Below, one piece after another: positions 31,505 to 61,195 of a DNA stretch of 64,000 nt. The notes under the pieces are model-generated. The model saw nothing but the letters and a program-made list of their open reading frames with translations. It searched no databases and was not told the DNA's origin. The number at the start of each line of letters is the position of its first letter. Position 1 is the stretch's first letter. The stretch comes from Hydrangea macrophylla (Eukaryota > Streptophyta > Magnoliopsida > Cornales > Hydrangeaceae): positions 49,165,162-49,229,161 of the forward strand of contig CM066995.1 of the NCBI GenBank assembly GCA_033977485.1. Direction: 5' to 3'. The translations under genes and the position numbers were made by a program.

Positions 31505-32843
31505 TGTCAATATCAAGATATAAAAAGTGCACTTTACTTTTATAAAGATTTGTAGTAGTGAAAGTAAAGGTCGAACCCACAGAGATTGAATTACTACATC
31601 TTTTAATTTTAAAACTTAAATCTAATTAATTATGAAAACGGAAGTTGATTTGAATTTTAATTAAACTAATAAGACTAATGAAAATAAATCTAAACTATGA
31701 AAGTGATTTAAAATTGTTTTTATAAATATGTTTAGGGAACCTAGGATTGCAAATCCACCACTACCTTCATAATAAGGGTATTTATGAATTCAATTAGCTT
31801 ATTAAGTTGGATGATAATGGAGAATTGTAGCTACAAACCCAATTCCTCCGTCAAGCAAATAACCATGGTTCAAGCATCAACATAATCCATCTTCGATTAG
31901 CACGAATTATCCCGTACTAAACTAGGGTTGTGGTATAATCTGTCTAACCTAGGCATGGACTATTCGGATACTTGATAGCACGATTCAATTAAGTACCATT
32001 ACATGTAAATAATCTATACAAGCACAGCAAATATAGACCATTGAGCGCATCACAGTCAAAATAGATCTAAGACAAGAATAGATTTTGAAAGTAATGATTT
32101 AATTAATAGAAGCACGATTTATTATAAAAAAAAAATCCTCTAAACATGTAATCATCATCCATACATAATAAAAATAAAATAAAAACATAAATAACTCCTT
32201 ATTACTTGGCTAGGGTTTCATTGAAACCCTAGATCTAGGTTTAGTTGGCCATGGAATTGATGAATGGCAAGAGGTTGATGGAGGAAGCCATGGGAATCTT
32301 TGGTCTTCTTCTTCTTCTCCTTGCTTTCCTCTCTTCAATGGCCGTGTATATTGTTGTATATGGCTGTATGTATATGTGTATAATATAGTCTCCCTAAAAA
32401 TTAAATAAAAACAAAGTATATATAGAGTTTGGAACAAGTTTTGGAAGCTTTCCTAACCCGAAACGCACTAAAACTGCTATATTTTACAGTTTAAACATAA
32501 TTGGGCAGTTTCGTTTGCACAGGAGTCTTCAGTATAGTGAAATACGCAACTTTGATTTTTACACAGGTCGCGCGAGCGGGTTGCGTGAGCGCGATGATGG
32601 GAAGTCGCGCGAGCGGGTTACTCGAGCGAGGTTCAAGTCTTGCGCGCGAGCGGGCCTCGCGCGCGATAGGCCTTTTTTAGCTTCTTTTCTTCTAGTTTTT
32701 CACCCTGTCTAGTCTGAACTACTTGTTTTCTTCCAAAACCTGTCAGAAAATAGAAAATGAAGTAAAAATACACAAAAACAGGATAAAAAGTACAAACAAA
32801 TGCGCGTTAAGGCGTATAATTAGGATTTGTTATCTCCCGATCA
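31505..32843 (-). repeat. 3' LTR of element E
   Basis: This LTR is 1339 bp. It starts TGATCGGGAGATAAC (at 32843, minus strand) and ends TGATATTGACA. The inner 770 bp match 57884-58652 with a few percent difference. GC-rich words occur at 32567-32669. The flanking plus-strand bases GATGT (31500-31504) are the expected target duplication, whose partner was deleted. Confidence 0.9.
32567..32669. repeat. Cluster of CGCGCGAGCGGG words in the Athila LTR
   Basis: GTCGCGCGAGCGGGTT occurs twice, with variants TGCGTGAGCGCG, TACTCGAGCGAGG, CTTGCGCGCGAGCGGGCC and CCTCGCGCGCGA. It is strongly CG-rich inside AT-rich DNA. Related clusters occur at 54278-54552 in the internal part of the same element. Confidence 0.85.
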
Positions 32844-34336: not shown

Positions 34337-34607
34337 TGTAGGCACCCCGATTTTGACCAAACGTCGAATTAAGGAGAGTGTCACCTCCATATCCGATGAT
34401 GACAAGGACCGAAAGATTCGAAGTGTTCCAAGCTCTTCAGAAAGTTCTCCAAACGCAGTAAAATTTTCATAGAATGAAATACCAGGTGTTTAGGAGAATT
34501 TAGGTATAAAACATCACTTTTGGAAAAGATCTTCGAAAATAAGTTTTTTTAAGAAAAAGGAGAAAAGAAAAGACCTAAAAAGGGGAAGTTCAACAGAAAC
34601 TGGCACA

Positions 34608-34930
34608 CGGCAGTTGTTTGCGGCACTCAGTGAGTGCCGAACGGCAGTCACAGAATGCCGGACCGGCATTTACTGAGTGCCGCCGACAATTTCTGACTGT
34701 CATTTGCTTTAACAGTCCATATTTTGTGGTACAATACTTATATATATATGTGGATAAAAACAAAAAACTGATAAAGTAAGGTTGACAAAAATGCGGCAAT
34801 TAATAATTTGGCGCGGCACTTACTGAGAGCCGCGCGACAGTCATGGAATGCCGCCGCGGCTTTCACGGAGTGCCGCAGCGGCATCTACTGACTGCCGCAA
34901 AGGATTTTTGACTGCCGCCTTCTGCAGCAG
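34608..34930. repeat. GTGCCG/CGGCAGTC word clusters upstream of the LTR promoter
   Basis: Two blocks (34608-34690 and 34812-34921) contain about 12 variants of GCGGCACT, GAGTGCCG, CGGCAGTC and GACTGCCG. These are inverted versions of one another and are often paired around TCAGTGAGTGCC-like centres. They lie 100-420 bp upstream of the TATA box. The 3' LTR carries the same blocks (50925-51240). Confidence 0.88.
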
Positions 34931-35027
34931 TCTGTCTATTTTCAAGAAGTACGTATTGTACCACCAAATAAGACATTTACACATGTCTTTTACTCCGAAT
35001 TCACTGAGAAAATTTGGTATTTTTGTC

Positions 35028-35034
35028 TATAAAA
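35028..35034 (+). promoter_or_regulatory. LTR promoter TATA box of element F
   Basis: CTATAAAAG in both LTRs (35028 here, about 51338 in the 3' LTR), followed by an AG-rich leader. It is the best TATA match in the LTR. Confidence 0.6.
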
Positions 35035-37342
35035 GAAGGGGGATCTTCCTTGGGAGGATACACAAGAAGTAGCTACCACTACACTCACACTCACATATTT
35101 GAGAGAAAAAAGAGAGAGTTTAAAAAAAAGCTAGTGAGAAGAGCTTGGAAGATCTTCAAAAGGGAGAAGCTTTGAGGATAGTTTGGAGGTGATCCTCTAA
35201 CCATAAGTTGTTTTTCTTCATTTTTTTGAACTTCTAAACACTACTTGGTCCTTTGATTAACCCCTTTTAGAAGTATTATTAGGAAACTTGCAAACTTTAA
35301 TTGCCTTTTCTTTTAGTTCCTTCTTTTCTTCCTCTTTGTTTATACTTCTCTCTTTGGGATTCTTAGAAGTCTTCCATACTTCACTTGAATCTAATGAGTT
35401 GAATCCCTTGATTCCATGAGAGCTTGTGCTCCCCCATGAGAGTCAAGGTTGATCATCCTTTATATAAGAGCAAGTAAATGAATCTAAACCCCTACAATGG
35501 TTTAGGATTCTCTAACTTAAGGTTTCATGGAATCCCCTTCCATATTCCTTGAAAACCTATGAGTATTAGCTATGTTTCTTTGTACTTCTCTCTTAAGATT
35601 CTTGAAGGCTCATGAGTATTAGTCATGTCTTCATCTCCAATGACCATCAAATGGTAGGAGAACGTAGTTTGAGTCTAAGCCCATCTCCATGGTTTAAATT
35701 CATTATCTTGAGATTTCATGAAGTCTATTCATACTTCATTTGAAATCTACAAATATAAAGGTCTTTAGCCTCCAATGACCATCAAATGGTAGGAGAAAAT
35801 GGTTTAGTTTAAGTCCAACTTCATGGTTTAATAGTTGGGGTTAACAAATAAAAGTTGAACTTGACAATGAAATAGTGGATTCATAAACCATTTTTAATCA
35901 AAGATTTTTGGTTCGAAATCTAACCGTTGGAATCAAGTGAAACCAATGGAAAAATGTCACTAACTCAAAGTTCTACCACTGTAATTTTTGTTTTAAGGAG
36001 ATTTCATGTTTAAAGAGGTTTGGTCATGAGTTTTGTGAAGTCACTACAATTTGTCCAGAGTTTCAGAACAGTAACACTCTTTTGAAATAAGTAAATCAGA
36101 ACCTTAATAAAGTATTTGTGACCCAAAATAATTTTTTCTAAGTATATTAATGTGTTAGAAGTCACCCTAAAAAGAACAAAGCATTTTTGATCTTTTTGCT
36201 ATTTTTAGAAAATCACGCAAGGACTCTGGACAAAAGGTTGTAGAATGCTGAGTGATGTCTGGTTTTTGTCCAATTCCCGGAGATCCAACCATTGAAACTT
36301 TGATTTCTTTTTTGGGTTAAAAACTAGACACACAGAGGCATCTTGTGTCCAAAATTCATCAAGATCAAGCCACGGGAACCATGCTTTTTAATTCTTTAAA
36401 GTTATGATCTGCTCTCAGCAATTCCCAAAATTCTGCAAGTTTTAATCAATCTTATGAGTAATGACTTAGATGATATTTTCATGAGTTAAAGTTCAAACCA
36501 TGTCCCAATAATGATTAGTTAAGCTTGAACTCAAAGTTTAAGTGATCTCAATCATCGAGTGTTTCACAATTTATTCTTGTTCATGTACATATTCATCCAT
36601 ATGGCTTGACACTTATAATTAGGACTTGGTTGCTTTAGATTTAATTATATTTGATAGATTTAAGCTAGAAATTCAGGGTTGTTATTTCTAACTTCGTATC
36701 ATGTATAGCATGTGGACTAACCCTTTGTTTTGCAGCGCTATTAAGGTATGATTTCTTGAACTCCTATTAATTTATTTTAATTTCTTGATTTTATCGATTT
36801 TCTTGACCTTTATGCGCGACACATTAGAATTAAGGTTTTGCCTTAAATGTATATATGTGGATTATAGACTCTTTTCCTAGGTTTTATTTAATCGCATGCA
36901 TTGCATGTTTAATATTCGCGGATGGATCCCAGGTAAGTTCTCTTGTTCTTTATTGCATATCATATTGCTTGCTACTTGAATTACGTGGCTTTTGAATGAT
37001 ATTTTGTAAATTAGTAATTTTACACCATTTTGACATGTTTGTGTAATGTATACGTATATCTATGTATTAGTTCAGGGCATGCTTAGATTAAAAGGATGTT
37101 AAGTAGAGGCCTATCGTGAGATAGGATGAGAAGGGGTGTTTTAGTCCGATAGGCTCCTTCCCTTCTCATTCCATAATCCCCGGACCTAGTTAATCTTTGG
37201 TTTCGCAAAAGATCAGTTGCTTTAAAATGGTTTCTTAATTTTCCTTTTAAAAATTAAGTGGCGACTCATTTGTTTTGAATTTGAAATTTAAAAGAACTTT
37301 AAAAGAAAACCTGTGAGTAAGAAAATTGTGATATCCACAATC

Positions 37343-38598: not shown

Positions 38599-39682
38599 AT
38601 GGTCGAAGAAAAAAACAACGAAGAAATAGCCGGGTTAAGGACACTGGTAGAACAACAAGCGGAGCAAATGAGGCGACAGGCCGAAAACATGAACCGCATG
38701 ATGGGGATGATAGAAGAGCTGAATCACCGACCACCACATGTAATTCCGCCTATTATGGACCCACCTTTGGGAGGAGGGGAAGGAGATTGGTTCGATGATC
38801 AAGAGGCACAATGGACTGATGCACTACGGGACAACAGAGACAGAGAGAAAGTTGAGAAGGAGAAGCTACTGACCGAGAAAATAGAGAAGTTGGAAAGGGT
38901 GATGCGCAAAGCTCAGGGAGTTTATACCTATTTGATGGAGTTGGAAGGTCTGTACGACGAGGTCCACGAGACGCTGCCTGCCGGGTTTAAGATGCCGATT
39001 TTTGACAAGTTTGACGGGACTGGGAATCCTCGCAGCCATATAAGGATGTGTCTTAGAGCTTTTCAACCAAGTGGGCTGAGCACAACCATGATGGCAGTCC
39101 TATTCCAACAGACTCTGACTGGGGCTGCTTTATCATGGTATCTTACTCTCCAACCAAGCAAGACCAAGGTGTGGGAGGAAGTGATCAAAGCATTTTGTGG
39201 CACAGTACGAGTACAACCAAGATTTAGATGTCACTGTCCGAGATTTGGAGACCACTAGGCAAGGCAACAAAGAATCATTCGCCGAATACCTGAGCAGATG
39301 GAGGGGAAAGGCAGCTAAAATGGTACAAAGGCCGTCTAAGAAGGACCAGATCCGAATGCTAATGAAGAACCTACAGCCAGTGTACCAAGAAAAGATGAGA
39401 TTCCAGTCAATCAACACCTTTGTTGAGATTTTCGATGTCGGGACGAGGATAGAAGATGCAATCCAAGAGGGGGTAATCAAGAGAGAGGAACAACCAAACC
39501 GGTACAGGAGGCCAAACTACGGGTCCAACGGAGGACAAACGGGGGGTCACTCCAGCCCCACCGATGTTAATGCACTAAATGGGCCAGAAAGGAAATTCGA
39601 CATAACACCGAGGAGAGGAGGGGACAAAGCACCAAGGAAGTTCTCAGATTTGGGAATGTCACTATCAACTGCCCCTAGATAG
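38599..39682 (+). pseudogene. gag of element F
   Basis: The ATG at 38599 (MVEEKNNEEIAGLRTLVEQQ) opens a coiled-coil-rich N-terminus. The Tat/Ogre gag core follows: FKMPIFDKFDGTGNPRSHI, LFQQTLTGAALSWYLTL, YEYNQDLDVTVRDLE, ESFAEYLSRWRGKAAKM and FVEIFDVGTRIEDAIQEG. One frame change near 39195 splits the core. Another near 39660 ends the frame just before a zinc-binding-like FCKFHQQKGHSTDRC, which is read in the next frame from about 39770. Expected length is about 400 residues. Otherwise it is well preserved. Confidence 0.88.
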
Positions 39683-39710
39683 ACTATTAGCGAAGGGGCA
39701 TCTCCGTCAG

Positions 39711-42647
39711 TTGGAACCTCGACCTCTGCCAAGTCCACTTCTGCCAAATTTCCAAGGGGACGTCTTCTGTAAATTTCATCAGCAGAAGGGTCACTCAACG
39801 GATCGATGTATGAGATTAAGGCAAGAAATCCAGAACCTCATTGATAACAAAGTAATTTCAGAACCACCTACCAAAGCTCCAAATGTTATTAGAAATCCGC
39901 TTCCGAATCATCAAGCTGTGCCACCACCGCAGGGCCTTTATCTCTTGGGCATGGAAGAAGCAACCTTCGATCCATCTAGGCTAATCACTAAGGCCGGGAC
40001 ACCAAGAAAGTCATACCAGCTACCTAAGGATTCGACAATCTGTGCTTTGGAGGATCATCCGGTCAAGAGTAAAATGGGACAGTCAGACTGGTGGATTCAA
40101 GGGAGTGACGGTCGAGACGTGAGCCAGGTAGAAGACGATCTTTGGTATGAGAGCGACAAAGAAACAGAGATGGGGGAGGGTACTTTGAAAGTTGATTCAG
40201 AAGTTGATAATCTGTGGGCAAGAGAAGTCAGTCATTTAACTCGGTCGGGCAGACACTTTAAACCGCATGAGCTAGAAGAAGATCATCTAGGGAGAGAGTT
40301 GGACAAGGGAAAAGGGAAGATGAACGAAGAAGAGGAAGAAGACAGGGTTCTAAAGCAGATGAAGAAAACTCAGGCCAATATCACCATTTGGGGGTTACTG
40401 ATAGCATCAAAATGCCATAGGCAGGCAGTGTTGGACGCCCTAAATCAATCTGATGTTCCCATCAACACAGCACCGGAAGATATCGTAGGAATGATTGGCA
40501 GGATTCCAACCTTGGCTATTACCTTTTCTTCAAATGACATGCCCCCCAGAGGACCCATGCTCAACAATCCGTTGTATGTCACTGTTGAATGTTTGGGGAA
40601 CACCGTGCCCGCTTGTCTCGTTGACAACGGGTCCGCTCTGAATGTATGCCCCTTCCGAACAGCCAAATGGATGGGTTTAGATGAATCATCCTTTGTGTCG
40701 TCACAACAAAAGGTTAGGGCATATGACAACACTCAGAGAGCAGTCATGGGTATCATCTCTCTTAACCTTGTCATCGAACCAGTGGATAAACAAGCCGAAT
40801 TTCAAATCATTGACATCCCCGCCTCTTTTAATTTATTGCTAGGGAGGCCATGGTTGGATAGCTTGGGTGCCATACCGTCCACCATTCATCAAAAGGTCAA
40901 ATGTGTTTGGAAGGATAAGGTCTGCGACATTCTCGGGGACAGCTGGGTTGGTTCGTCCGAAGCATCATCAAGCGCACCGATTCTAGAATTACAACTGCAA
41001 GAAGAAGAAGCAAAAATGGGAGGGTTCGAGTTCGTCGGCATGATTGAAGAAGAAAAGCCAAAAGAATTCCTGCCTCTTTACTTTGACCAGTACGCAAGCC
41101 CATTGGTCGTAGGAATCATGAAGAAAATGGGTTTCTCTCCAGGATTAGGGTTGGGAAAGAACCACCAAGGCATGCCGGAGTTCTCAAAAATCCCTACTCA
41201 GACTCACACTCATGGTCTGGGGTACCAACCATCCAAGAAAGGGGAGAAGGAAAAGAAGAAGGTCATCGATGCACCACTAGACCTTTACCTAAAGACGCTC
41301 AATGGATATTTTATGAAGGAAGGAGAAGATTTCCCATTTTGCGGCTTCCCAGAGCCATGGGTGGACCAGAAAGATAAATGTTTAAAGCCAGGGTTCGAGA
41401 TCTTTTTTCCCCACGAGTTTACTGCATATGAAGACCCATACTTGCAGCTGCCTATCAAATCGGTCACTGCCGAGGATTGGATTGGTGCACTCAACGGTTC
41501 TGTCATGAAAAATATGTTGGGCGAAGGGAGCACAGAAGTTATAAAAGTGGATCATGGAAAGGCCAAGGGTGAACACGTTGAAGGTCTGGTGGAGGAGGCA
41601 GTCGGGAGTGAGGAAGATGGAGAAGATCAGAGGGAGACTGACAAAGGAAGGCCCGAGAAAGAAGAGATGGAGGAAATTACCAAGACGGGGGATCTGGAAG
41701 AATGCTTCATCGCCGATTTGGGAGGAGTGAACAAGAGAGAGTGGGTTTTTGAGTCTAGTGATAGGTTTCCCCCACACCCAGAGTCTGTAATGGCCCAAAT
41801 GAGGCGTCTTTCAATTTCTATGTCTGTTGTAATCACTCCAAAAAAAATCAATGAGAACATGACTGATTCTGCCTACTCGAATGCGCTTAATGAATGTGAT
41901 GAATGTGAAATACCCGATGAATTAAAAAAATTAATTAAAAAAGAAAAAGAATCTGCATGTAAAATCATTGAGGACACTCTAACAATTAATCTAGGAAATG
42001 AAAAAAATCCTCAAAATGTCTTTATCGGCTCTACGCTTGGCAAAGAAGAAACCGAAGAATTAATCAAGCTATTAAATGAATTCAAAGATGTTTTCGCATG
42101 GTCTTATAATGATATGCCAGGCATTGATCCAGAGATAGTCCAACACCACATCCCCATTTTCCCAAATTCAAAACCGGTAAAACAAAAGTTGAGGCGAATG
42201 AGGCCTGAATGGGCACTCAAAGTTAAAGAGGAAGTTGAGAAGCAGTTAAGAGCCAGATTCTTAATGGTCACCGAGTATCCAGAATGGATCGCCAACATAG
42301 TACCCATCCCTAAAAAGGATGGTCGTGTTAGGGTTTGCGTTGATTTTCGAGACCTAAACAAAGCAAGCCCTAAAGACGATTTCCCTTTACCGCATATCGA
42401 CATCCTCGTTGATAACACTGCCGGACATGAGCTTCTGTCCTTTTTGGATGGATTCTCCGGCTATAGCCAGATCTTGATGGCACCAGAAGATAGAGATAAA
42501 ACTGTTTTTATCACGCCATGGGGAACGTACTGCTATAGGGTAGTGCCATTTGGGCTCAAGAATGCAGGAGCAACATATCAGTGGGCCACTACCACGTTAT
42601 TACACGACATGATCCATAAGAGGTGGAAGTGTATGTGGATGATATGA
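39711..42647 (+). pseudogene. Gag C-terminus, protease, G-patch and N-terminal RT of element F
   Basis: One frame of 978 codons. In order: CX2HX4HX4C-like knuckle (residues about 23-36), acidic linker, aspartic protease (LVDNGSALNVCPF near residue 305; LLLGRPWLDSLGAIPS), G-patch (MKKMGFSPGLGLGKNHQGM near residue 470), acidic Glu-rich linker, then RT (FAWSYNDMPGIDP, IANIVPIPKKDGRVRVCVDF, DLNKASPKDDFPLPHID, VVPFGLKNAGATYQ). A one-base loss near 42618 throws the frame just before the YVDD active site. AT content rises at 41810-42110 between G-patch and RT, where Ogre elements have an intron, but here the frame stays open. Confidence 0.92.
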
Positions 42648-45232
42648 TTGTGAAATCTAAGGAGAGGAGAGGTCACTTGGAGGCTCTGAAGAAATTCTTC
42701 GGGAGGTTAAGAGAGCTTAGGATGAGATTAAATCCACAGAAATGTACCTTCGGAGTCACCACGGGAAAATTATTAGGGTTCCTTATTACTCAGAGGGGAA
42801 TCGAAGTAGACCCGACTAAGATAAAAGCCATAGTCAAGGTGCAACCACCCAAAAATGAAAAAGAGCTGAGGGGGTTCCTGGGTAGAATACAATTCATAAG
42901 CCGTTTTATCTCAAAGCTCACCATGACCTGCGACCCGCTATTTAAATTGATCAGAAAAGGAGAAAAGTTCGAGTGGGATACCTTGTGCCAGAAAGCCTTC
43001 GATAAGATTAAAACTTACCTCCAAAACCCACCCGTCCTATCACCACCTTCACCCGGGAAGCCATTGCTGCTATACCTTTCTGTGACCGAAGATTCAATGG
43101 GATGCATGTTGGCCCAAGAAGGAGAAGAAGGACACGTAGAAAAGGCCATTTATTACTTGAGCAAAAGGATGACCGGATACGAGTTGAAGTACTCACCCTT
43201 AGAGAAAGCATGTTGGGCCTTACTTTGGTGTACCCGTCGCCTTAGGCATTATATGTTAGCCTTCCCCGTGATCTTAATCTCCCGAATGGATCCGCTCAAA
43301 TACATGTTTGAAAAACCCGCCTTGACAAGTAGGATTTTCCGATGGACCATGATGCTAGCCGAGTTTGATATCAGGTATGTCACCTCCAAATCTATCAAGG
43401 GGAGAGCCATCGCCGAGTACCTAGCTGACTTTGCCGTGGAAACTGGGGAGAAAGGAGAATTCAAGTTCCCTGATGAAGAAGTGATGGAGGTAAGGGAGGA
43501 TTTGTGGAAGATGTATTTTGATGGGGCCGCCAATCAATTAGGCTATGGAGTCGGGGTTATCCTTGTAGCACCTGATGGAACCCCTACCCCATTGGCCGTC
43601 AAGCTTAAGTACAACTTAACCAATAACACAGCAGAGTACGAAGCATGCATAGTAGGAATGGAGGCGGCGCTGGCCTTAAAGGTCGAAAAAGTTGATGTGT
43701 TCGGAGATTCCAATTTGATCATATCCCAAGTGCGAGGAGATTGGAGGGTGAAACACGAAAAGCTGAGGCCATACCATGACTATTTGGAGAGTTTGAAAGA
43801 ACAATTTAAGAAGATATCATTCTACTACCTTCCCCGGGAGGAAAACCAATTGGCCGATTCCTAGGCAACCCTGGCATCAATGATACAGATCCCCTCCGGG
43901 GTCACGATGGTCCCATTATCCATAGAGGTCCGAAATGAACCCTCATTTGAGACAGTCGCGGCCATAGAAGACGAGGGGAAAATACCATGGTATGTGGATG
44001 TGTGGAATTTCATTAAAAAAGGAGACTACCCCAAAGGAGCCTCAGAAAAGGACAGAAAAGCGATTCGATGATTCGTCGCTCAATTTGTGATTTATGCAGA
44101 TAAGCTATGGAAGAAATCCTACACCGGGTATAATCTGGAGTGCCTATATAGAAAAGAAGCTAAGAGAATGATGGAGAAAATACATGAGGGATTATGTGGA
44201 CCCCACATGAATGGGCACATGCTGGCAAAGAAGATCATCCGACAGGGGTATTATTGGACGACCTTGGACAAAGACTATTGTGAATATGTTAGAAGGTGTC
44301 ACAAGTGCCAGATTTATGCAAATCTAATGCACACCCCGCTGTCACAGCTCTATAGCATGACCACCCCTTGGCCATTTTCCGTATGGGGGATTGATATCAT
44401 TGGTGAGATAGTTCCGAAGGCTTCCAATGGGCACCGATACATAATCGTGGCAATCGATTACTTTACCAAATGGATAGAGGCAGCCTCGTATGCGACTTTG
44501 AAGGCCAAAGACGTAGTGAGTTTCATCGACAAAAACATAATCTGCAAGTATGGGGTCCCGAATGAATTTATCTCCGATCATGGCAGTCATTTCCAAGGAG
44601 AGGTTATCCCGCTCTTAGAAAAGTATAAGATCATTCGCCATCAGTCTTCCCTGTATAGACCTCAGACGAATGGAGCAGTAGAAGCGGCGAATAAGAATGT
44701 TAAAGCGATCTTGGGAAAAATGACGGATACGTACAAGGATTGGCATGAGAACCTGCCATTTTCTTTGTGGGGATACAGAACCTCGGTGAGAACTTCAACG
44801 GGTGCTACGCCATATTCGTTAGTGTACGGGATGGAGGCGGTCCTTCCGATTGAGGTAGAAATACCCTCTCTCAGGGTCTTGGCAGAATGCAAAGTAACCG
44901 AGCTAGAATGGATGAGGGGGAGGTATGAGGAGTTGATGTTGCTCGATGAGAAGAGATTGGCCGCAATAAACCATACTCGTGGATATCAGAAGAGAATAGC
45001 TCATGCTTTCAACAAAAAGGTCCGCCCAAGGAAGGTTGCTGAGGGTGACCTAGTCCTCAAAGAACTGAAAGTGCCCGTTTATGACCCCAGAGGAAAATTC
45101 AAACCCAACTGGGTCGGGCCATACATCATAAAGACTCTCCTCTCTGGAGGGGCGGCCTATCTGATGGACCTGGATGGGGTTGAATTTAAGAAACCAATTA
45201 ACCTCGATCGCCTCAAGAAATACTTTGCTTGA
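42619..45232 (+). pseudogene. RT active site, RNase H, second RNase H and integrase of element F
   Basis: It resumes after the frame loss with VEVYVDDMIVKSKERRGH, LGFLITQRGIEVDPTKI and FLGRIQFISRF. The connection RNase H (YLSVTEDSMGCMLAQE; YYLSKRMTGYELKYSPLEK) and a second, archaeal-type RNase H (MYFDGAANQLGYGVGVILV; NNTAEYEACIVGMEAAL; VFGDSNLIISQV) follow. Integrase shows CHKCQ zinc binding, WGIDIIGEI, ISDHGSHFQGE and NGAVEAANKNVKAIL. Two stops break it: TAG at 43861-43863 (Leu expected) and TGA at 44069-44071 (Arg expected, CGA to TGA). Integrase from 44087 on is one open frame of 381 codons. Confidence 0.94.
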
Positions 45233-45875: not shown

Positions 45876-45985
45876 GACGAAGTGCCACACGGCAGTCCGT
45901 GAGTGCCGTTGCGGCATTTTCTGACTGCCGCTGCGGTACTCACCGAGTGCCGCTGAGACCTCACCGAGTGCCGTTCTGAGTTTTT
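45876..45985. repeat. GTGCCG/CGGCAGTC cluster upstream of the second antisense remnant
   Basis: AAGTGCCACACGGCAGTC, GTGAGTGCCG, GCGGCATT, GACTGCCG, GCGGTACTCACCGAGTGCCG and CACCGAGTGCCG follow each other. They are the same word family as in the LTRs of element F. They lie about 60-170 bp beyond the TATA-like box of the minus-strand remnant. Confidence 0.85.
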
Positions 45986-46428: not shown

Positions 46429-48982
46429 TTAATAAAGAGTAGGGAAGAAAGCGAGATCAGCTCGACCCCGGCCTCGAGCCTGGCGGGTTACACGCCTGAG
46501 AGGCTCCCCCTCTGACTTTGTCCCGCTCCCGCCACCCCTGCCTCTACCTCCGTCGCTACCTCCGCCGCTGCCTCCACCGCTACCGCCGCCTCGCCCCACG
46601 CCTCGTCCGGCATTGCCGTCTCCAGGAGTGTCGCTGAGGGGAATGCCGAACTGCTGGAGCCGCTGCTGAAGCTCCCCCACCTGCTGGGACAGGACTCTGA
46701 TCTCCTCCGCCTGAAATGTGAGGGAATGAATCCGGAAAGTGTTGAAAGGACAAATGAAACACTGAGAATAAAAGGTGAAGATAATACCTGAGCCCTCAGC
46801 TGAGCCGCGGCAGTCGTTCGAGCTCCCTCAGCCTAAGACCGGCAACCAGGAAGCAAGAGTAAGAGTTGATAAAAATAACCCAAGTTAAAGTTAAAAAAAA
46901 AAAAAAAAAACTGGAATGAGTTTCTTACCATCCACTCTAGTCCAAGGACCCACTGTCGCACACTGTAGGCGTACGCCAAGCCTTCTTCCGTATAAGCACG
47001 AGGGACGACGTCGTAATGAAGAGGAATAGTGGGGACCCCCTGGGAGAGTCGAGGAATCATCGTCAAAAATGGCTCGCCGAACGAGACGGTAGACATGGTC
47101 CAATCCCACTCGGGTAAGGCGGGAGGACGAGTAGCGGCAGGGACGGGCTGCAAACAAGATATAAGCATAAATAAAGAGTAAAAGGAAACTCATGAAAGAT
47201 TGAAGGAATCTTGTACTCACCCGAGTCACTTCCATCAGAGGGAAGTTCGGCATCAGCTTAGCAGCACGGAAAGCTGCGTATCCTATGGGAGGCTCCAAGA
47301 AACCATGAATACCCGAGCCAGCCAGAGCAGCCGTGAGCTCGCTACCCTGAAGCGTATCCGTGTTTCTCATAGAAACTGGAAGAGGGTGTGGCACAAAAAA
47401 CCCCGGAGCCGCCTGTGACTGCCTAGTCACCCTCTCTCCCAAATACCACGCCTGGGCCTCCGGCCCATCAATAAGCCACCTCATCGGATCCCATCCGCCC
47501 GATACCTGAATCCTCGCAGAAGCCTCGGGAAGCACCCTGAGCTATAACTGCCAGCGAACATACTCCTCCCTCAGGTTCATCAGGAAGTTCCTGAACGAAA
47601 TAAAATCATGTGCCCCAATCTTCCGTCCGACCCTATCCTTCGCCCATTTCAGCCCCTGGGGCATGACGAGGGCGTCGGCATCGCGTGTCTTGGGGGACAT
47701 CATGCGGAAGTACTCGTGGGACCAAATCTTCAATGAATAAAAAAAGAAAGAGGTCATGAGTCTCACAGTTTAAATAATCATCCGAAAGCATAATAAATAT
47801 TGAAATGGAAATAAAAGAAAGGACGTACCTCCCACACCCTCCAAAAATCGCCAGTAGAAGTCGGCCTGTCCCGGAAGATCTCTCCCATGTGCTTGTATAG
47901 GATGGCTAATCCTACACCAGCCTAGTCATACTCATGTATCTGGTCCATGCGCTCCAAAGAAGATACCTCGGTGACGGAGAACCGATCGCCCTTGGTGCTC
48001 CACAGGAAGCACCCTAGCATATTATACATCATGAAGCCCCGAGCCATCTGCTCATCGGTAAAGTTTGGTTTGCCCTGGAATGTGTCCATGAACCACTTGG
48101 CCGTGACCAAGGGCTCCTCCGGAACCGCTCCAAGCAACGCCTCCACCTGGTCCTAGTCTCTGGTCGCATCCAAGTACCGTAAGGGTTCTCCCCCGAATGG
48201 AATCCCTATAATCATACTGAAGCCAGGGGAGTCATCGTCATCTCCCCAAAATCAAAGTGGAAGGTATTGGTGGTATCCCACCACCTCTCCGCCAGCGCAT
48301 GGATCTGTCGTAGGTCGTTGGAGCTCTTCATCAAAAGTTTGACGAAGTCCCCAAAACCTGCATCACTGACGAACCCCTGTATGGTCTCGCTGAGCTCCCC
48401 GTACCACTCATACCCGTGAGCGAGGCTGCCATGCCCCTTTAGCACGACGACATTCAAAAGTCCTTGAGAAAAGTCGAAAGAAAAATAAGGGAATTGATAC
48501 AGGTGGAACTCCCGAAAGTTCAACAAACGTGAGGAATAATAATAAATTATGATTCGTCGGGCATAATATTCATAAAGTTCATGGGAAGTAAAATAGAAAT
48601 CTTGAATAAAGTATGCATGAAAACGCTACAAGCATGGTATTGGCAATCAAAATGAGACATTCAAAGTTATGATTCATTATACATTCCATTCATAAAGTTC
48701 TAAAATAAGAAAATTAAAAAGAAAAGGGGGAGCGTTTACCTCGCGCTTGAACGCGCGGGCAGATAAGTGATCATCAGGGTCCCGGAGCAAGAGTGTGGCG
48801 TCGGTATGATGAGTGGTCGTCGGGATGATGAGTTGCCGTATACTTGGCCTTCTTCTTTCTCCCCGAACTGTTCGCCATAGTCTGTCAAAGAGAAAGAGAG
48901 ATTCGCGCGTTAAATTCATAAAAAATTCAGAAAAACAATGAAATGAAAGCGATTAACTGAGTTTTGATCGAGTAGAACTAAC
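46429..48982 (-). pseudogene. Antisense multi-exon plant mobile domain gene of element F
   Basis: The minus-strand gene lies between pol and the 3' LTR. A leader intron (48982-48882, GTTAGT...GACAG) is followed by ATG at 48878 (MANSSGRKKKAKY). Exons with canonical GT/AG ends: 48881-48740, about 48462-47829, 47727-47221, 47147-46929, 46832-46788 and 46710-46429. The last four exons all join in phase 0. Exon 2 holds the domain core (RQIHALAERWWDTTNTFHFDFGE; WFMDTFQGKPNFTDEQ; LGCFLWSTKGDRF), like the plant mobile domain (PF10536). Exon 6 is a short coiled coil followed by a GGSGGGSGGGSDGGRG-type tail. Breaks: stops near 48154, 47922 (both where Trp is expected) and 47542 (Gln expected), and frame changes in exons 1 and 2. 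Confidence 0.75.
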
Positions 48983-49099
48983 CTGAGAGCCCCGGTAGAT
49001 CAATCCAAGCAAGAAAAGAGAAGAGGAAAATTTTCTCCAGAGAGATTTCGGGTTAGAGGGAGTTGAGAGAATGAAACGAAATGTAATGAACTCGGCGGT

Positions 49100-49260
49100 T
49101 TTAGCCACTGCCGCTCAACTGCAGCACTTGATTTTCGTGCCCGGCAGTCGGTGAACTACCGAGCGGCACTCGCTGACTGCCGCAATGGCACTACTCCGTG
49201 AGTGCCGCATGGCAGTCACTGACTACCGTGAAAAGTCACGTGTGCCGCGGTTAAGTCGGT
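49100..49260. repeat. GTGCCG/CGGCAGTC cluster upstream of the antisense gene
   Basis: CACTGCCGCTCAACTGC, CCGGCAGTCGGTG, GAGCGGCACTCG, GACTGCCG, GTGAGTGCCGC, GGCAGTCACTGAC and GTGTGCCGCGG lie 120-280 bp upstream of the leader intron of the minus-strand gene. They are the same words as in the LTRs of element F. Confidence 0.87.
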
Positions 49261-49413
49261 TCAAAGACCCTTCATTTTCCCCCAAGAATTCAAATCAGGT
49301 CCTGAAAATTGAACTTAAGCCCCCCAAAATTTGCCCTCATTGTACTTTTGGCCCCCGGGGTCGTTTTTAGGTTTAAATTGACTAAAAATTTTAAAAAAAA
49401 TTAGAATAAATTT

Positions 49414-49566
49414 GAGCCCGCGGGCTCCAAATTTTGAAAATTAAGATAAACTTGAACCTGTGGGTTCTAGATTTTGAAAATAAAGATGAAATTAAGCCCG
49501 CAGGCTCTAAATTTTGAAAAAAAAAAACAAAACAAAAAACTAGAATAGATTTGAGCCCGTGGGCTC
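49414..49566. repeat. Four GAGCCCGCGGGCTC-type palindromes in a degenerate tandem repeat
   Basis: Palindromes: GAGCCCGCGGGCTC (49414), GAACCTGTGGGTTC (49454), AGCCCGCAGGCT (49495) and GAGCCCGTGGGCTC (49553), each embedded in an AT-rich unit with ATTTTGAAAA. The second palindrome has A and T where the first has G and C, at paired positions. Confidence 0.85.
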
Positions 49567-49589
49567 TGAAGTTTTGATCACCTCATTCT

Positions 49590-50187
49590 GGGAATATAAC
49601 AAATTTATATTCCCGATCCTCGTAACAAATTTACGTCAATCCTTTGTCTTGAGAATGTAACGAATTTACATTCTCGGTCCTCGCAACCAATTTGCATTAA
49701 CCCCTGCTCTGAGAATATAACAAATTTATATTCTCGATCCTCGTAACAAATTTTTATCGATCCTTTGTCTTGAGAATGTAACGAATTTACATTCTCGGTT
49801 CTCGTAACCAATTTGCGTTAACCCCCGTTCTGAGAATATAACAAATTTATATCCTCCATCCTCGTAACAAATTTACGTTGATCCTTTATCTTGAAAATGT
49901 AACGAATTTACATTCTCGGTTCTCGCAACCAATTTGTGTTAACCCCCATTTTGAGATATAACAAATTTATATCCTCGATCCTCATAACAAATTTACGTCG
50001 ATCCTTTATCTTGAAAATGTAACGAATTTACATTCTCGATTCTCGCAACGAATTTGCGTTAACCCCCGCGCGTTCTGAGAATATAACAAATTTATATCCT
50101 CGATCCTCGTAACAAATTTACGTCGATCCTTTATCTTGAGAATGTAACGAATTTACATTCTCGGTTCTCGTAATGAATTTGCGTTAA
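49590..50187. repeat. Array of five ~121-bp units, each with four hairpins (20 hairpins)
   Basis: Each unit has four inverted repeats in fixed order: GAGAATATAA/TTATATTCTC, CGTAA/TTACG, GAGAATGTAA/TTACATTCTC and CGCAA/TTGCG. Each surrounds a 5-base loop of the form CNAAT. Units start at 49590, 49711, 49832, about 49953 and about 50077. In the first unit the outer arms are GGG and CCC instead of GAG and CTC. Linkers are GATCCT, TCGATCCTTTGTCTT, GGTTCT and TTAACCCCCGTTCT. There is no open frame. Confidence 0.93.
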
Positions 50188-50635
50188 CCCCAAAATTGAA
50201 TCAAAAGCATCTTCATGACCCCCATAACAAATTTTGCATCAGTCAAGAATCAGGTAATCTTCTCTGACTAACGCATCACGTAATGTGCGTCATACGTAGA
50301 GAAGACATGATAAGCATGACGCTTGCATAACCAGGTCTATTCAGGAATCACCATTACATGGCATGCACATCACGATAGGATAGGTGCATCCATCTGTGTG
50401 ACTACCTGCGTTTGTGTGTGGTTGACCCCGTGCCCGAACAACGCTTTGGTCTGATTCCTAATGGGATACGTAGGCAGCTCATCATGGAGCACGACCAATT
50501 AGAATTCCTCTGCGTGCTCACTTCCTTTTGCAACGCATTTTGTTTTTCCCTTTAATCCAACAGTTTGGTCATAGGCCTGTCTTCACACAGGCTTCGGCGT
50601 TCGCTTGCGGTTCGCGTTGCCCCACAAGCTCCGTC
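50188..50635 (+). other. 3' non-coding end of element F
   Basis: No gene. It carries the conserved GGATACGTAGGCA motif (50464-50476) with upstream ACAACGCTTTGGTCTGATTC, which parallels the copy after pol at 45270-45305. It leads to the polypurine tract. Confidence 0.65.
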
Positions 50636-50649
50636 GAAGAGGGGCAAAC
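50636..50649 (+). other. Polypurine tract of element F
   Basis: GAAGAGGGGCAAAC lies directly before the 3' LTR start TGTAGACATCCC. Confidence 0.8.
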
Positions 50650-53608
50650 TGTAGACATCCCAATTTTGACCAAACGTCGAATTAAGGAGAGTGTCACCTC
50701 CATATCCGATGATGACAAGGACCGAAAGATTCAAAGTGTTCCAAGCTCTTCAGAAAGTTCTCCAAACGCAGTAAAATTTTCACAGAATGAAATACCAGGT
50801 GTTTAGGAGAATGCGGGTATAAAACATCACTTTTGGAAAAGATCTTCGAAATTAAGTTTTTTTAAGAAAAAGGAGAAAAGAAAAGACCTAAAAAGGGGAA
50901 GTTCAACAGAAACCGGCACACGGCAGTTGTTTGCGGCACTCAGTGAGTGCCGAACGGCAGTCACAGAATGCCGGACTGGCATTTACTGAGTGCCGTCGAC
51001 AATTTTTGACTGTCGTTTGCTTTAACAGTCCGTATTTTATGGTACAATACGTATATGTATGCGGATAAAAACAAAAAACTGATAAAGTAAGGTTGACAAA
51101 AATGGGGCAATCAATAATTTGGCGCGACACTTACTGAGAGCCGCGCGGCAGTCATGGAATGCCGCCGCGGCTTTCACGGAGTGCCGCAGCGGCATCCACT
51201 GACTACCGCAAAGGATTTTTGACTGTCGCCTTCTGCAGTAGTCTGTCTATTTTCAGGAAGTACGTATTGTACCACCAAATGAGACATTTATACCAGTCTT
51301 TTACTCCGAATTCACTGAGAAAACTTGGTATTTTTGTCTATAAAAGAAGGAGGATCTTCCTTGGGAGAATACACAAGAAGTAGCTTCCACTACACTCACA
51401 CATATTTGAGAGAAAAAGAGAAAAAAAAAGCTAGAGGGAAGAGCTTGGAAGATCTTCAAAAGGAAGAAGCTTTGAGGATAGTTTGGAGGTGATCCTCTAA
51501 CCATAAGTTGTTTTTCTTCATTCTTTTGAACTTCTTAACACTACTTGGTCTTTTGATTAACCCCTTTTAGAAGTATTATTAGGGAACTTGCAAACTTTAA
51601 TTGCCTTTTCTTTTAGTTCCTTCTTTTCTTCCATACTTCACTTGAATCTAATGAGTTGGATCCCTTGATTCCATGAGAGCTTGTGCTCCCCCATAAGAGT
51701 CAAGGTTGATCATCCTTTATATAAGAGCAAGTAAATGAATCTAAACTCCTACCATGGTTTAGGATTCTCTAACTTACGGTTTCATGGAATCCCCTTCCAT
51801 ATTTCTTGAAAACCTATGAGTATTAGCTATGTTTGTTTGTACTTTCTCTCTTGAGATTCTTGAAGGCTCATGAGTATTAGTCATGTCTTCATCTCCAATG
51901 ACCATCAAATGGTAGGAGAAAATAGTTTGAGTCTAAGCCCATCTCTATGGTTTAGATTCATTATCTTAAGATTTCATGAAGTCTATTCATACTTCATTTG
52001 AAATCTACAAATATAAAGGTCTTTAGCCTCCAATGACCATCAAATGGTAGGAGAAAATGGTTTAGTTTAAGTCCAACTTCATGGTTTAATAGTTGGGGTT
52101 AACAAATAAAAGTTGAACTTGACAATGAAACAGTGGATTCATAAACCAATTTTAATCAAAGATTTTTGGTTCGAAATCTAACCGTTGGAATCAAGTGAAA
52201 CCAACGGGAAAATGTCACTAACTCAAAGTTCTACCACTGTAATTTTTTTTAAGGAGATTTCATGTTTAAAGTGGTTTGGTCATGAGTTTTGTGAAGTCAC
52301 TACAATCTGTCCAGAGTTTCAGAACAGTAACACTCTTTTAAAATAAGTAAATCAGAACCTTAATAAAGTATTTGTGACCCAAAATAATTTTTTCTAAGTA
52401 GATTAATGTATTAGGACGTCAGCCTAAAAAGAACAAAGCATTTCTGATCTTTTTGCTATTTTTAGAAAATCGCACAACAAATCTGGACAGAAGGTTGTAG
52501 AATGCTGAGTGATGTCTAGTTTTTGTCCAATTCCCGGAGATCCAACCGTTGAAACTCTGATTTCTTTTTTAGGTTAAAAACTAGACACACTGAGGCATCT
52601 TGTGTCCAAAATTCATCAAGTTCAAGCCACGGAAACCATGCTTTTTATTTCTTTAAAGTTATGATCTGCTCTCAGCAATTCCCAAAATTCTGCAAGTTTT
52701 AATCAATCTTATGAGTAATGGCTTAGATGATATTTTCATGAGTTAAAGTTCAAACCATGTCCCAATAATGATTAGTTAAGCTTGAACTCAAAGTTTAAGT
52801 GATCTCAATCATCGAGTATTTCACAATTTATTCTTGTTCATGTACATATTCATCCATATGGCTTGACACTTATAATTAGGAATTGGTTGTTTTAGATTTA
52901 ATTGCATTTGATAGATTTAAGCTAGAAATTCAGGGTTGTTATTTCTAACTTCGTATCTTGTATAGCATGTGGACCAACCCTTTGTTTTGCAGCGCTGTTA
53001 AGGTATGATTTCTTGAACTCCTCTTAATTTATTTTAATTTCTTGATTTTATCGATTTTCTTGACCTTTATGCGCGACACATCAGAATTAAGGGTTTTCCT
53101 TAAATGTATATATGTGGATTAGAGACTCTTTTCCTAGGTTTTATTTAATCGCATGCATTGCACGTTTAATATTCGCGGCTGGATCCCGGGTATGTTCTTT
53201 TGTTCTTTATTGCATATCATATTGCTTGCTACTTGAATTACGTGGCTTTTGAATGATATTTTGTAAATTGGTAATTTTACACCATTTTGACATGTTTGTG
53301 TAATGTATACGTATATCTATGTATTAGTTCAGGGCATTCTTAGATTAGTAACTCAATTAAAAGGATGTTAAGTAGAGGCCAATCGCGAGATAGGATGAGA
53401 AGGGGTGTTTTAGTCCGATGGGCTCCTTCCCTTCTCATTCCATAATCCCCGGACCTAGTTAATCTTTGGTTTCGCAAAAGATAAGTTGCTTTAAAATGGT
53501 TTCTTAATTTTCATTTTAAAAATTAAGTGGCGACTCATTTGTTTTGTATTTGAAATTTAAAAGAACTTTAAAAGAAAAGTTGTGGGTAAGAAAATTGCGA
53601 TATCCACA
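50650..53608 (+). repeat. 3' LTR of element F
   Basis: It is 2959 bp, starts TGTAGACATCCCAATTTTG, ends GATATCCACA and is followed by the target duplication GCAGT. It carries the same word clusters (50925-51240) and TATA box (about 51338) as the 5' copy. The two copies differ by scattered substitutions and one deletion of about 40 bp. Confidence 0.94.
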
Positions 53609-57872: not shown

Positions 57873-57883
57873 AAAATTAATAT

Positions 57884-58652
57884 TGTCAATATCAAGATAT
57901 AAAAAGTGTACTTTACTTTTATAAAGATTTGTAGTAGTGAAAGTAAAGGTCGAACCCACAGAGATTGAATTACTACAGCTTTTAATTTTAAAACCTAAAT
58001 CTAATTAATTATGAAAACGGAAGTTGATTTGAATTTTAATTAAACTAATAAGACTAATAAAAATAAATCTAAATTATGAAAGTGATTTAAAATTGTTTTT
58101 ATAAATATGTTTAGGGAACCTAGGATTGCAAATCCACCACTACCTTCATAATAAGGGTATTTATGAATTCAATTAGCTTATTAAGTTGGATGATAATGGA
58201 GAATTATAGCTACAAGCTCAATTCCTTCGTCAAGAAAATAACCATGGTTCAAGCACCAACATAATCCATCTTCGATTAGCACGAATTATCCCACACTAAA
58301 CTAGGGTTGTGGCATAATCTGTCTAACCTAGGCATGGACTATTCGGATACTTGATAGCACAATTCAATTAAGTAACATTACATGTAAATAATCTATACAA
58401 GCACAACAAATATAGACCATTGAGCACATCACAGTCAAAATTGATCTAAGACAAGAATAGATTTTGAAAGTAATGATTTAATCAATAGAAGCACGATTTA
58501 TTATAAAAAAATCCTCTAAACATGTAATCATCATCCATACATAATAAAACTAAAATAAAAACATAAATAACTCCTTATTACTTGGCTAGGGTTTCATTGA
58601 AACCCTAGATCCAGGTTTAGTTGGCCATGGAATTGATGAACGGCAAGAGGTT
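57884..58652 (-). repeat. 5' LTR of element E, truncated
   Basis: It matches 31505-32276 of the 3' LTR (TGTCAATATC start in plus orientation) and then breaks off. The outer part of about 570 bp, with the GC-rich words and LTR start, is missing. CACTA-type sequence follows at once. Confidence 0.9.
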
Positions 58653-59029
58653 TAGTATTTGTGACGGAATTTGGTCCGACACAAATATTAGTGTCATATA
58701 TGCTAATTATTTGTGTCGACCCGAAATCGTCACAAATAGTATTTGTGACGGATTTTATTTGAAGATTCCGTCACAAATAGTATTTGTGACGGAGTTTGGT
58801 TATAAATTCCGTCCCAAATATCATTTGTGTCGGATTTTGTTTGAAGATTTCTGTCACAAATAGTCACCAACAATTATTTTTTTTTATCACAATAAATTAT
58901 AATAAACTAATTTTTAACGACAAAAACCACATACAATTTAAAAGCATATTAATTAGACAAAACGAGATACAGTAAAACTTTTTTGTGACAGATTTATAAC
59001 CGTAACAAAAAGCCTGTTTTCTTGTAGTG
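58653..59029 (+). mobile_element. CACTA-type DNA transposon end fragment
   Basis: The right terminus is CCTGTTTTCTTGTAGTG, the inverse of CACTACAAGAAAACAGG, a typical CACTA terminal repeat. Inside are many subterminal repeats, TTTGTGACGGA and its inverse TCCGTCACAAA, some back to back around ATAGTAT. The left terminus is absent, so the copy is truncated where it meets the Athila LTR. No transposase is present. Confidence 0.82.
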
Positions 59030-60615: not shown

Positions 60616-61195
60616 GAGCATCCACAGTGGGTTGATTATACAACAAACTTAAGCATAGTTTGGATGTAGGACACTTGTAATGGGTCGATGGTATGACAGC
60701 GTACAACACTGAAACTTAAGAAAACTTAAGTTTAATGTACAACTAAGTTCAGCTATTGTACAAGGCTGACGGCACAATCAGAACCGTGAGGAGCCAAACG
60801 GCACACATTGTGCCGTGTGATGTTCAAGCGGCACTATATGAGCCGTGTGATATCACACGGCATAATGTGTGCCGTGTAAAGTTGTGTCCAAAAAGGCTAT
60901 TGAAAATAAAATAATAAATTTGAAAATAAATAAGAGTAAATAGAGTATAAAGAAATAAGAGTAATAAGAGTATACAGTTGTGTCCAGGCTATTCAAACGG
61001 CACATGTGAAGCCGTGTGATATCACGCGGCACACATTGTGCTGCCTAGTCCCACACGGCACAATGTGTGCTGTTTGATATCACACACGGCTCTTCCTTTG
61101 GCGTTTAAACAAATACCCATTGCGAGTGTATTTCATCTGTACACTAAACTTACTAAACATGAGCCTTAAGTTTACTATACCTGCTGTGGATGCTC
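60616..61195. mobile_element. PIF/Harbinger-like MITE, 580 bp, TSD TTA
   Basis: Terminal inverted repeats GAGCATCCACAG (60616) and CTGTGGATGCTC (ending 61195) are flanked by TTA on both sides (60613-60615 and 61196-61198). TTA duplications and GAGCATC-type ends fit Tourist/Harbinger MITEs. It has no transposase. Its interior carries CACACGGCACA/TGTGCCGTGTGA word clusters. Confidence 0.82.
60771..61090. repeat. ACGGCACA/TGTGCCGT word clusters inside the MITE
   Basis: Two blocks (60771-60885 and 60995-61090) hold about ten variants: ACGGCACACATTGTGCCGTG, AGCGGCACTATATGAGCCGT, GTGATATCACACGGC, ATAATGTGTGCCGTG, GTGATATCACGCGGC and CACACGGCACAATGTGTGC. Several are near-perfect palindromes. Confidence 0.85.

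Follow-up and report, generated by a model that had tools for sequence, protein, structure and literature searches.

The window, a stretch of 64,000 nucleotides of Hydrangea macrophylla, holds a Tat/Ogre-like Ty3-gypsy retrotransposon with a tandem array of hairpin pairs in its 3′ part, between the integrase and antisense ORFs and the polypurine tract. Such arrays occur in many places of the genome, and their stems carry ancient changes on both sides of the helix. We give about an even chance to the reading that the array represents the hypervariable 3′ repeat region of Ogre elements in a structured variant, whose hairpins would have been kept in the sense RNA while the element was active. A first-pass annotation had described the hairpins and interpreted them as a product of selection on folding; the observation was partly confirmed and the interpretation partly supported.

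Organisation and folding of the array

The array was delimited by TRF at positions 49587–50191 (period 121, 5.0 copies, 90% matches), with a half-period of 61 bp inside the 121-bp unit. Together with the sequence itself this confirmed the five units of about 121 bp with four hairpins each that had been annotated. The order within a unit is A1-B1-linker-A2-B2-linker. Hairpin A consists of a 10-bp stem and a 5-nt loop. Hairpin B abuts hairpin A directly. Its 5-bp inner helix closes on a loop like that of A and is separated by a 2x2 pyrimidine mismatch from an outer helix of 4 bp, which was seen in RNA folds and is GATC/GATC in B1 and GGTT/AACC in B2. In unit 1 the hairpins (unstranded features, like the array) are A1 at 49590–49614 (10-bp stem GGGAATATAA/TTATATTCCC, loop CAAAT), B1 at 49615–49641 (GATC outer helix weakened here, 2x2 mismatch, CGTAA/TTACG, loop CAAAT), A2 at 49651–49675 (10-bp stem GAGAATGTAA/TTACATTCTC, loop CGAAT) and B2 at 49676–49702 (outer GGTC/AACC with one mismatch here, CGCAA/TTGCA, loop CCAAT).

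The window's copy of the array is partly decayed. Five of its 10 A hairpins are perfect, four have one mismatch and a deletion, judged by eye, has shortened the remaining one; among the 10 B inner stems, all inspected by eye, four are perfect, three contain G-U and three are mismatched or disrupted. The four hairpins per unit were thus found as annotated, but not as exact stems, and B gained a second helix beyond the 2x2 mismatch. Similarly, the CNAAT form given for all loops was present, but the last B loop of the array departs from it (TGAAT). In both A and B hardly any change is seen at the loop head (C, two free bases, A, T) or at the two A-T pairs that close it, while the outer stems drift, a pattern expected from a candidate loop-recognising RNA-binding protein.

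In line with the annotated inverted repeats, both strands of the array folded far better than shuffled sequences, with z −15.7 on the plus (sense) strand and z −9.5 on the minus (antisense) strand, none of 20 shuffles being as low in either case. Hairpins with a stem of at least 9 and at most one mismatch numbered 9, against a mean of 0.58 and a maximum of 3 in 50 shuffles. Good folding of both strands would suit a precursor of double-stranded small RNAs, one of the roles first suggested for the array. We consider this role highly improbable: stems of 5–10 bp are short for Dicer substrates, which makes single hairpins unlikely precursors, and the sole Rfam match in 48900–51000 is a sub-threshold miRNA (16.6 bits vs 113, E 0.83), at chance level and outside the array. 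No match in that region exceeded the gathering score, and a tRNA scan of 30000–56000 found no tRNA.

Downstream of the array, at 50217–50244, lies an unstranded single-copy sequence with the related core RTAACARATTTTGC (44 of 50 loci aligned, L022 in part), a possible seed of the array. We rejected this core as a conserved hairpin, its pairing being poor by eye in most rows. Just 5′ of the main array TRF placed a 40-bp array of inverted repeats of the GAGCCCGCGGGCTC type (49397–49520, unstranded). The doubly changed form GAACCTGTGGGTTC of this repeat of about 40 bp was seen in 23 of 50 loci, and 41-bp repeats precede several divergent A/B arrays (L063, L064, L065 and L077).

The host element

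The element is bounded by a 5′ LTR of 3003 bp (34337–37339) and a 3′ LTR of 2959 bp (50650–53608), both on the plus strand and 96.2% identical (K2P 0.040), with a 5-bp target-site duplication, GCAGT, on both outer sides. The polypurine tract region, which ends in GAAGAGGGGCAAAC, occupies 50626–50649 on the same strand, directly 5′ of the 3′ LTR. Domain matches on the plus strand placed a G-patch and the start of RT in the frame 39606–42647 and the end of RT, RNase H and a second RNase H (RVT_3-type, aRH-like) in the frame 42620–43864; integrase was assigned to the frame 44072–45232, also on the plus strand, by a domain match and a protein search. On the minus strand an ORF at 48212–48625 contains the start of a plant mobile domain (PMD; PF10536, profile positions 4–44 of 347, E 6.3e-8, 32.6 bits, just under the curated cut-off of 34.9), and further antisense ORFs lie between the integrase frame and the array.

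The second RNase H (RVT_3, PF13456, E 3.5e-20) follows RT_RNaseH in the frame preceding the integrase frame, and so occupies the place between RNase H and integrase that defines the aRH of the Tat clade. The LTRs are long and the non-coding region is expanded and contains tandem repeats (49397–49520 and 49587–50191), as in Ogre elements; as in Ogre 3′ arrays, the repeats are located between pol and the polypurine tract, vary in unit number and have other monomers in relatives. The Retand marker Transposase_28 (PF04195) was found neither in the antisense stretch 46891–47535 (E≤0.001) nor in seven antisense pieces (E≤1), a scan that took in part of the element's antisense ORFs. In the sections of PMC6317226 considered here, the RNase H-aRH-integrase order holds for both Ogre and Retand, and a PMD extra ORF is present in 57% of Ogre elements. 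On these criteria, because of the RNase H-aRH-integrase order and the PMD ORFs, we file the element in the Tat clade, most likely in the Ogre lineage. The integrase search returned 2,252 proteins at E≤1e-20, the best among the matches listed being 70% identical; among the 120 of 2,252 listed, the relatives are mostly flowering plants by name and two have bacterial names.

A 779-bp direct repeat was observed on both sides of the element (31498–32276 and 57877–58652), which is therefore probably nested inside another element. Other repeats were noted in passing. Both LTRs contain 22-bp repeats with palindromic cores such as CGGCACTCACTGAGTGCCG (34621–34682, 34841–34899, 50934–50995 and 51140–51210), and a similar-looking repeat of the 22-bp type lies within the antisense region (45901–45973). 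Outside the element, tandem repeats with 41- and 29-bp units and palindromic cores (58728–58864, 60795–60877 and 60993–61085) may, by resemblance, be subterminal repeats of a DNA transposon.

The neighbourhood of the array raises a DNA-level alternative, in which the hairpins would be dyad-symmetric transcription-factor sites that activate the antisense ORFs or the LTR. Read in antisense, the array starts 962 bp upstream of position 48625, the 5′ boundary of the PMD-start ORF, and palindromic cores are visible by eye in other tandem repeats of the LTRs and beside the array. Its near-invariant AAC at the loop also resembles MYB cores. The RM boxes of Sireviruses, which are palindromic, have been proposed to act in this regulatory way; in the portion of PMC2829016 used here, they occur within LTRs and in certain elements also 5′ of ENV. 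Like the A/B array, RM boxes are numerous dyad-symmetric boxes in non-coding retrotransposon parts, some of them 5′ of an extra gene; unlike it, they belong to Ty1/copia, lie mostly in the LTR and mostly have a CGG-CCG core (same portion of PMC2829016). Membership of the array among the RM boxes was rejected, since RT-RNase H precedes integrase as in Ty3-gypsy and the motif is devoid of the CGG-CCG core. A term search of that portion of PMC2829016 gave 0 occurrences of ‘covaria’ and ‘hairpin’.

Abundance and close copies

We searched the genome (2.22 Gb, 19 contigs) with the array as DNA query. Scoring of 40 of the 4,125 candidates gave 74 matches, which were merged by hand to 40 places including the window. 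All 40 close copies carry the array, with 5–15 units each; the upstream flank is common to 40/40 and the downstream flank, at least in part, to 39/40. A loose three-loop pattern produced 18,298 genome matches (overlapping, several per array) against 49 for the reversed control, and a stricter version with Y before TAA produced 0. Among the first of the 18,298 matches, those listed formed 12 clusters on contig C1, 10 of which were fetched. The other two (C1:16995834 and C1:34509868–34510116) had no hairpin-like stems and were set aside by eye; some three-loop matches are therefore not of the A/B array type.

Pairing in the close copies reached 93.6% of cells (262 units, 40 copies), compared with 30–47% when slid. 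No covariation was detected in them (16 both-changed cells vs 18.0 expected), and a tree dominated by close copies gave 7 same-branch co-changes against 5.1 expected, a value reached by 816 of 2000 random pairings. Substitution rates in their arrays were similar to those of the flanks and LTR, with C/G transitions dominating. The close copies mainly show decay after insertion, without visible constraint, and are therefore hardly a test of selection; we rejected them as a covariation test.

The annotation had also taken a GGG/CCC stem in the first unit as a change made on both sides. First units of the close copies have G on the 5′ side in 34 of 40 cases, 33 of these 34 with T opposite (G-U). 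Only the window has C opposite that G, so the change is private to this copy, and we discarded it as covariation evidence. One-sided disruption had become common, since the unit pair 7-25 is an A-C mismatch in 180 of 260 units.

The want of co-change in close copies is compatible with a by-product of replication, in which a quasi-palindrome arisen by chance would have been multiplied into the array through RT slippage and strand transfer, its arms being matched by templated (fold-back) synthesis, with no selection on the hairpins. The related single-copy core just downstream of the array agrees with such an origin, as does abnormal strand transfer, a published hypothesis for Ogre 3′ repeats (PMC7004042, in the section considered).

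Paired changes between half-units of divergent arrays

For older divergence we used 10 arrays fetched from contig C1 and 20 loci adjoining a conserved motif that precedes the polypurine tract. This motif, GATTCCTNNTGGGATACGTAGGCAG at 50453–50477, has 981 sites in the genome and 0 in the reversed control and provided a handle for sampling the element group. The 20 motif loci were picked by hand from the listed part of the 981 sites to include rarer motif variants, and represent array types, not frequencies. Diverged A/B arrays were present in nine of them (L058, L063, L064, L065, L067, L068, L069, L074 and L077). The divergent set comprised 20 arrays including the window and 229 half-units, picked by an A-B spacing filter; one false half-unit (L049, 1/229) is contained in the tree, pair-type and mismatch counts and was left out of the strand-by-locus and per-site rank tests. 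An alignment, A1, was made of 40 representative half-units from the 20 divergent arrays, with another L049 unit in place of the false one.

In these 40 half-units 95.4% of cells were paired, against 30–48% when slid. Eight of 19 pairs had changed on both sides (3.8 in shuffles, 8 being reached by 1 of 500), and the covariation score of 0.280 was reached by none of 500 shuffles (0.191 ± 0.009). Further pair types showed no excess (20 vs 18.8 in shuffles, 102 of 500 reaching it). The two half-unit types differ at four stem pairs, 7-19, 27-51, 29-49 and 34-44 in A1, and all four differences are double and complementary; under a simple placement model that ignores base composition, the probability that 8 changes among 38 stem sites make up 4 full pairs is 8e-5. 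Most of the paired-change signal is one ancient split between two half-unit types. Of the annotated paired divergence among the stems of a unit, the difference between the half-units was borne out. The plain number of pairs with two Watson-Crick types among the 229 half-units was 5, and proves nothing alone, because slid versions (3–5) and random re-pairings (mean 4.0, 357 of 1000 reaching 5) come close.

We then considered the mismatch of hairpin B. It stays unpaired, its outer position being paired in 1% and its inner position in 13% of the 229 half-units, and both helices flanking it have changed in pairs. This argues against simple palindrome correction and so against fold-back synthesis as the source of matched arms, because most of the mismatch was left uncorrected while the helices on both sides changed. 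The same observations bear on transcription-factor sites: independent half-sites do not require changes on both sides of four pairs, and a non-palindromic 5-nt loop and the 2x2 mismatch have been kept. We regard regulatory boxes in DNA as quite unlikely.

In a separate observation by eye, several units of L054 and L056 have A1 with GAG/CCC and A2 with GGG/CTC. These would pair between A1 and A2 and not inside each hairpin, a candidate alternative pairing.

Rates of change and strand preference

Rates were examined on a tree that FastTree built for the divergent half-units from the 52 letters also used for the counts, with old branches defined by at least five tips on each side. Old branches carried 37 arm and 50 unpaired changes and terminal branches 246 and 108, respectively (OR 0.32, Fisher p 5e-6). 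Per site this corresponds to 0.97 in arms vs 3.57 at unpaired positions on old branches, and to 6.47 vs 7.71 on terminal ones. A per-site rank test was significant for old branches (p 0.018) and not for the ratio between old and terminal change (p 0.12). For the close copies neither per-site rank test was significant and the branch contrast was weaker (p 0.07). The tree of all 624 half-units pointed in the same direction, with 1.68 old-branch changes per site in arms, 3.10 in loops and 4.75 in the internal loop.

The lower rate of change in arms than at unpaired sites on old branches, with a much weaker contrast on terminal branches, again speaks against an array produced without selection on its hairpins. 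The annotation had set as its own counter-test that arm changes be as frequent as elsewhere: by this rule the close copies count against structure and the older divergence counts for it. Selection on folding accordingly stood in part, as pairing was kept between old half-units and subfamilies, but close copies showed no covariation and one-sided mismatches had become established in them.

We also compared the two strands. Established non-Watson-Crick pairs in the divergent arrays, read on the sense strand, comprise 45 G-U vs 19 A-C in locus-level counts; 14 divergent loci favour G-U, 1 favours A-C and 5 tie. Private ones are balanced (52 G-U vs 51 A-C). On the tree of divergent units the preference was not significant (G-U:A-C 35:25 internal, 68:64 terminal), as sites acting in DNA would also allow. 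In close copies A-C is favoured (31:55 internal, p 0.013; 13:58 established, in 30 of 40 loci), mainly owing to a single shared mismatch event. These counts are a lean towards sense RNA, no more: they are no proof because the loci are related by descent, the count on the tree lacks significance and the close copies point the opposite way. Strand preference was for the latter two reasons dropped as proof of sense RNA.

Sister elements at the same position

Folding of the arrays at the 20 motif loci was evaluated on one strand with 40 shuffles per 150-nt piece. Hairpin arrays of another type, GTGAG-CTTY-CTCAC, with fold z as low as −6.5, occupy the same place in the element in L059, L071 and part of L072. 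Their two-hairpin pattern has 13,562 matches in the genome and 0 in the reversed control. They share the position of the A/B array and are unrelated to it in sequence; their stem is near-constant, with no clear paired changes by eye. Tandem arrays without excess folding were found in four of the 20 sister loci (L060, L062, L066 and L070) and in another part of L072. L061 is intermediate in folding; in L073 and L076 the repeats are short palindromic ones only, and L075 has no tandem array. In L076, in the element's sense orientation, 19-bp repeats with TCGATCGATCGA cores were seen at 288–338 and 392–442.

Because four sister arrays show no excess folding, elements of this kind do not all need the structure. 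Hairpin arrays at this position are thus frequent but not required. That unrelated and sometimes unstructured arrays fill the same place also favours a by-product of slippage and strand transfer; with the kept B mismatch and the slower arms of old branches on the other side, we hold that origin to be possible, if on the unlikely side.

Relation to known repeats and a model for the array

In 2009 Macas reportedly described the hypervariable tandem repeats in the 3′ part of Tat/Ogre and Retand LTR retrotransposons. The A/B array resembles Ogre/Retand 3′ repeats in its clade, its position between pol and the 3′ LTR, its tandem monomers, its family-specific sequence, its variable unit number and the extra antisense ORF, and differs from those described in that the monomer is a hairpin pair with arms changed in pairs. 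In the parts considered of Vicient 2025 (PMC11963269), Neumann 2019 (PMC6317226) and Vondrak 2020 (PMC7004042), tandem repeats between pol and the 3′ LTR are well described in Ogre/Retand, and the first calls their origin and function unknown. A term search for the word ‘hairpin’ in the main text of these three sources, within the same parts, gave 0 occurrences, and no report of hairpin monomers in Ogre 3′ repeats was recognised by title or abstract start in the open-licence literature. The annotation could name no element already reported to have an array of this type. Tandem repeats at this site are in fact well known, but the hairpin shape that was kept seems undescribed, as far as these titles and abstract openings extend.

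For the structured variant of the Ogre 3′ region, our preferred reading, the following course may be envisaged. Across this group of families a hairpin module (A + B) makes up the repeat unit; it was duplicated to give the 121-bp double unit, which was then amplified in tandem. Unit number may have shifted via strand transfer during reverse transcription, the process hypothesised in the cited section of PMC7004042. During activity of the element the hairpins would have been held as structure in its sense RNA, where repeated stem-loops with the near-constant YAAC-NN-AT-TTR head may have been recognised by a putative nucleic-acid-binding protein, Gag or a host factor. After insertion the arrays decay, with no constraint visible. 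In this scheme position, structure, copy number and the ancient paired changes were observed, and what the hairpins do in the element is inferred.

A further-reaching version would make of the array a modular 3′ untranslated RNA platform open to amplification, with at least 20 stem-loops sharing one conserved loop head on drifting, covarying stems and bound in several copies by Gag or a host factor, in which packaging, export or stability would depend on the length of the array; an unrelated second hairpin array would have arisen at the same place in sisters. We consider this version doubtful. A family whose monomers are hairpin pairs with paired changes, next to unstructured sisters built on one scaffold, provides a natural comparison to judge whether these arrays act as RNA.
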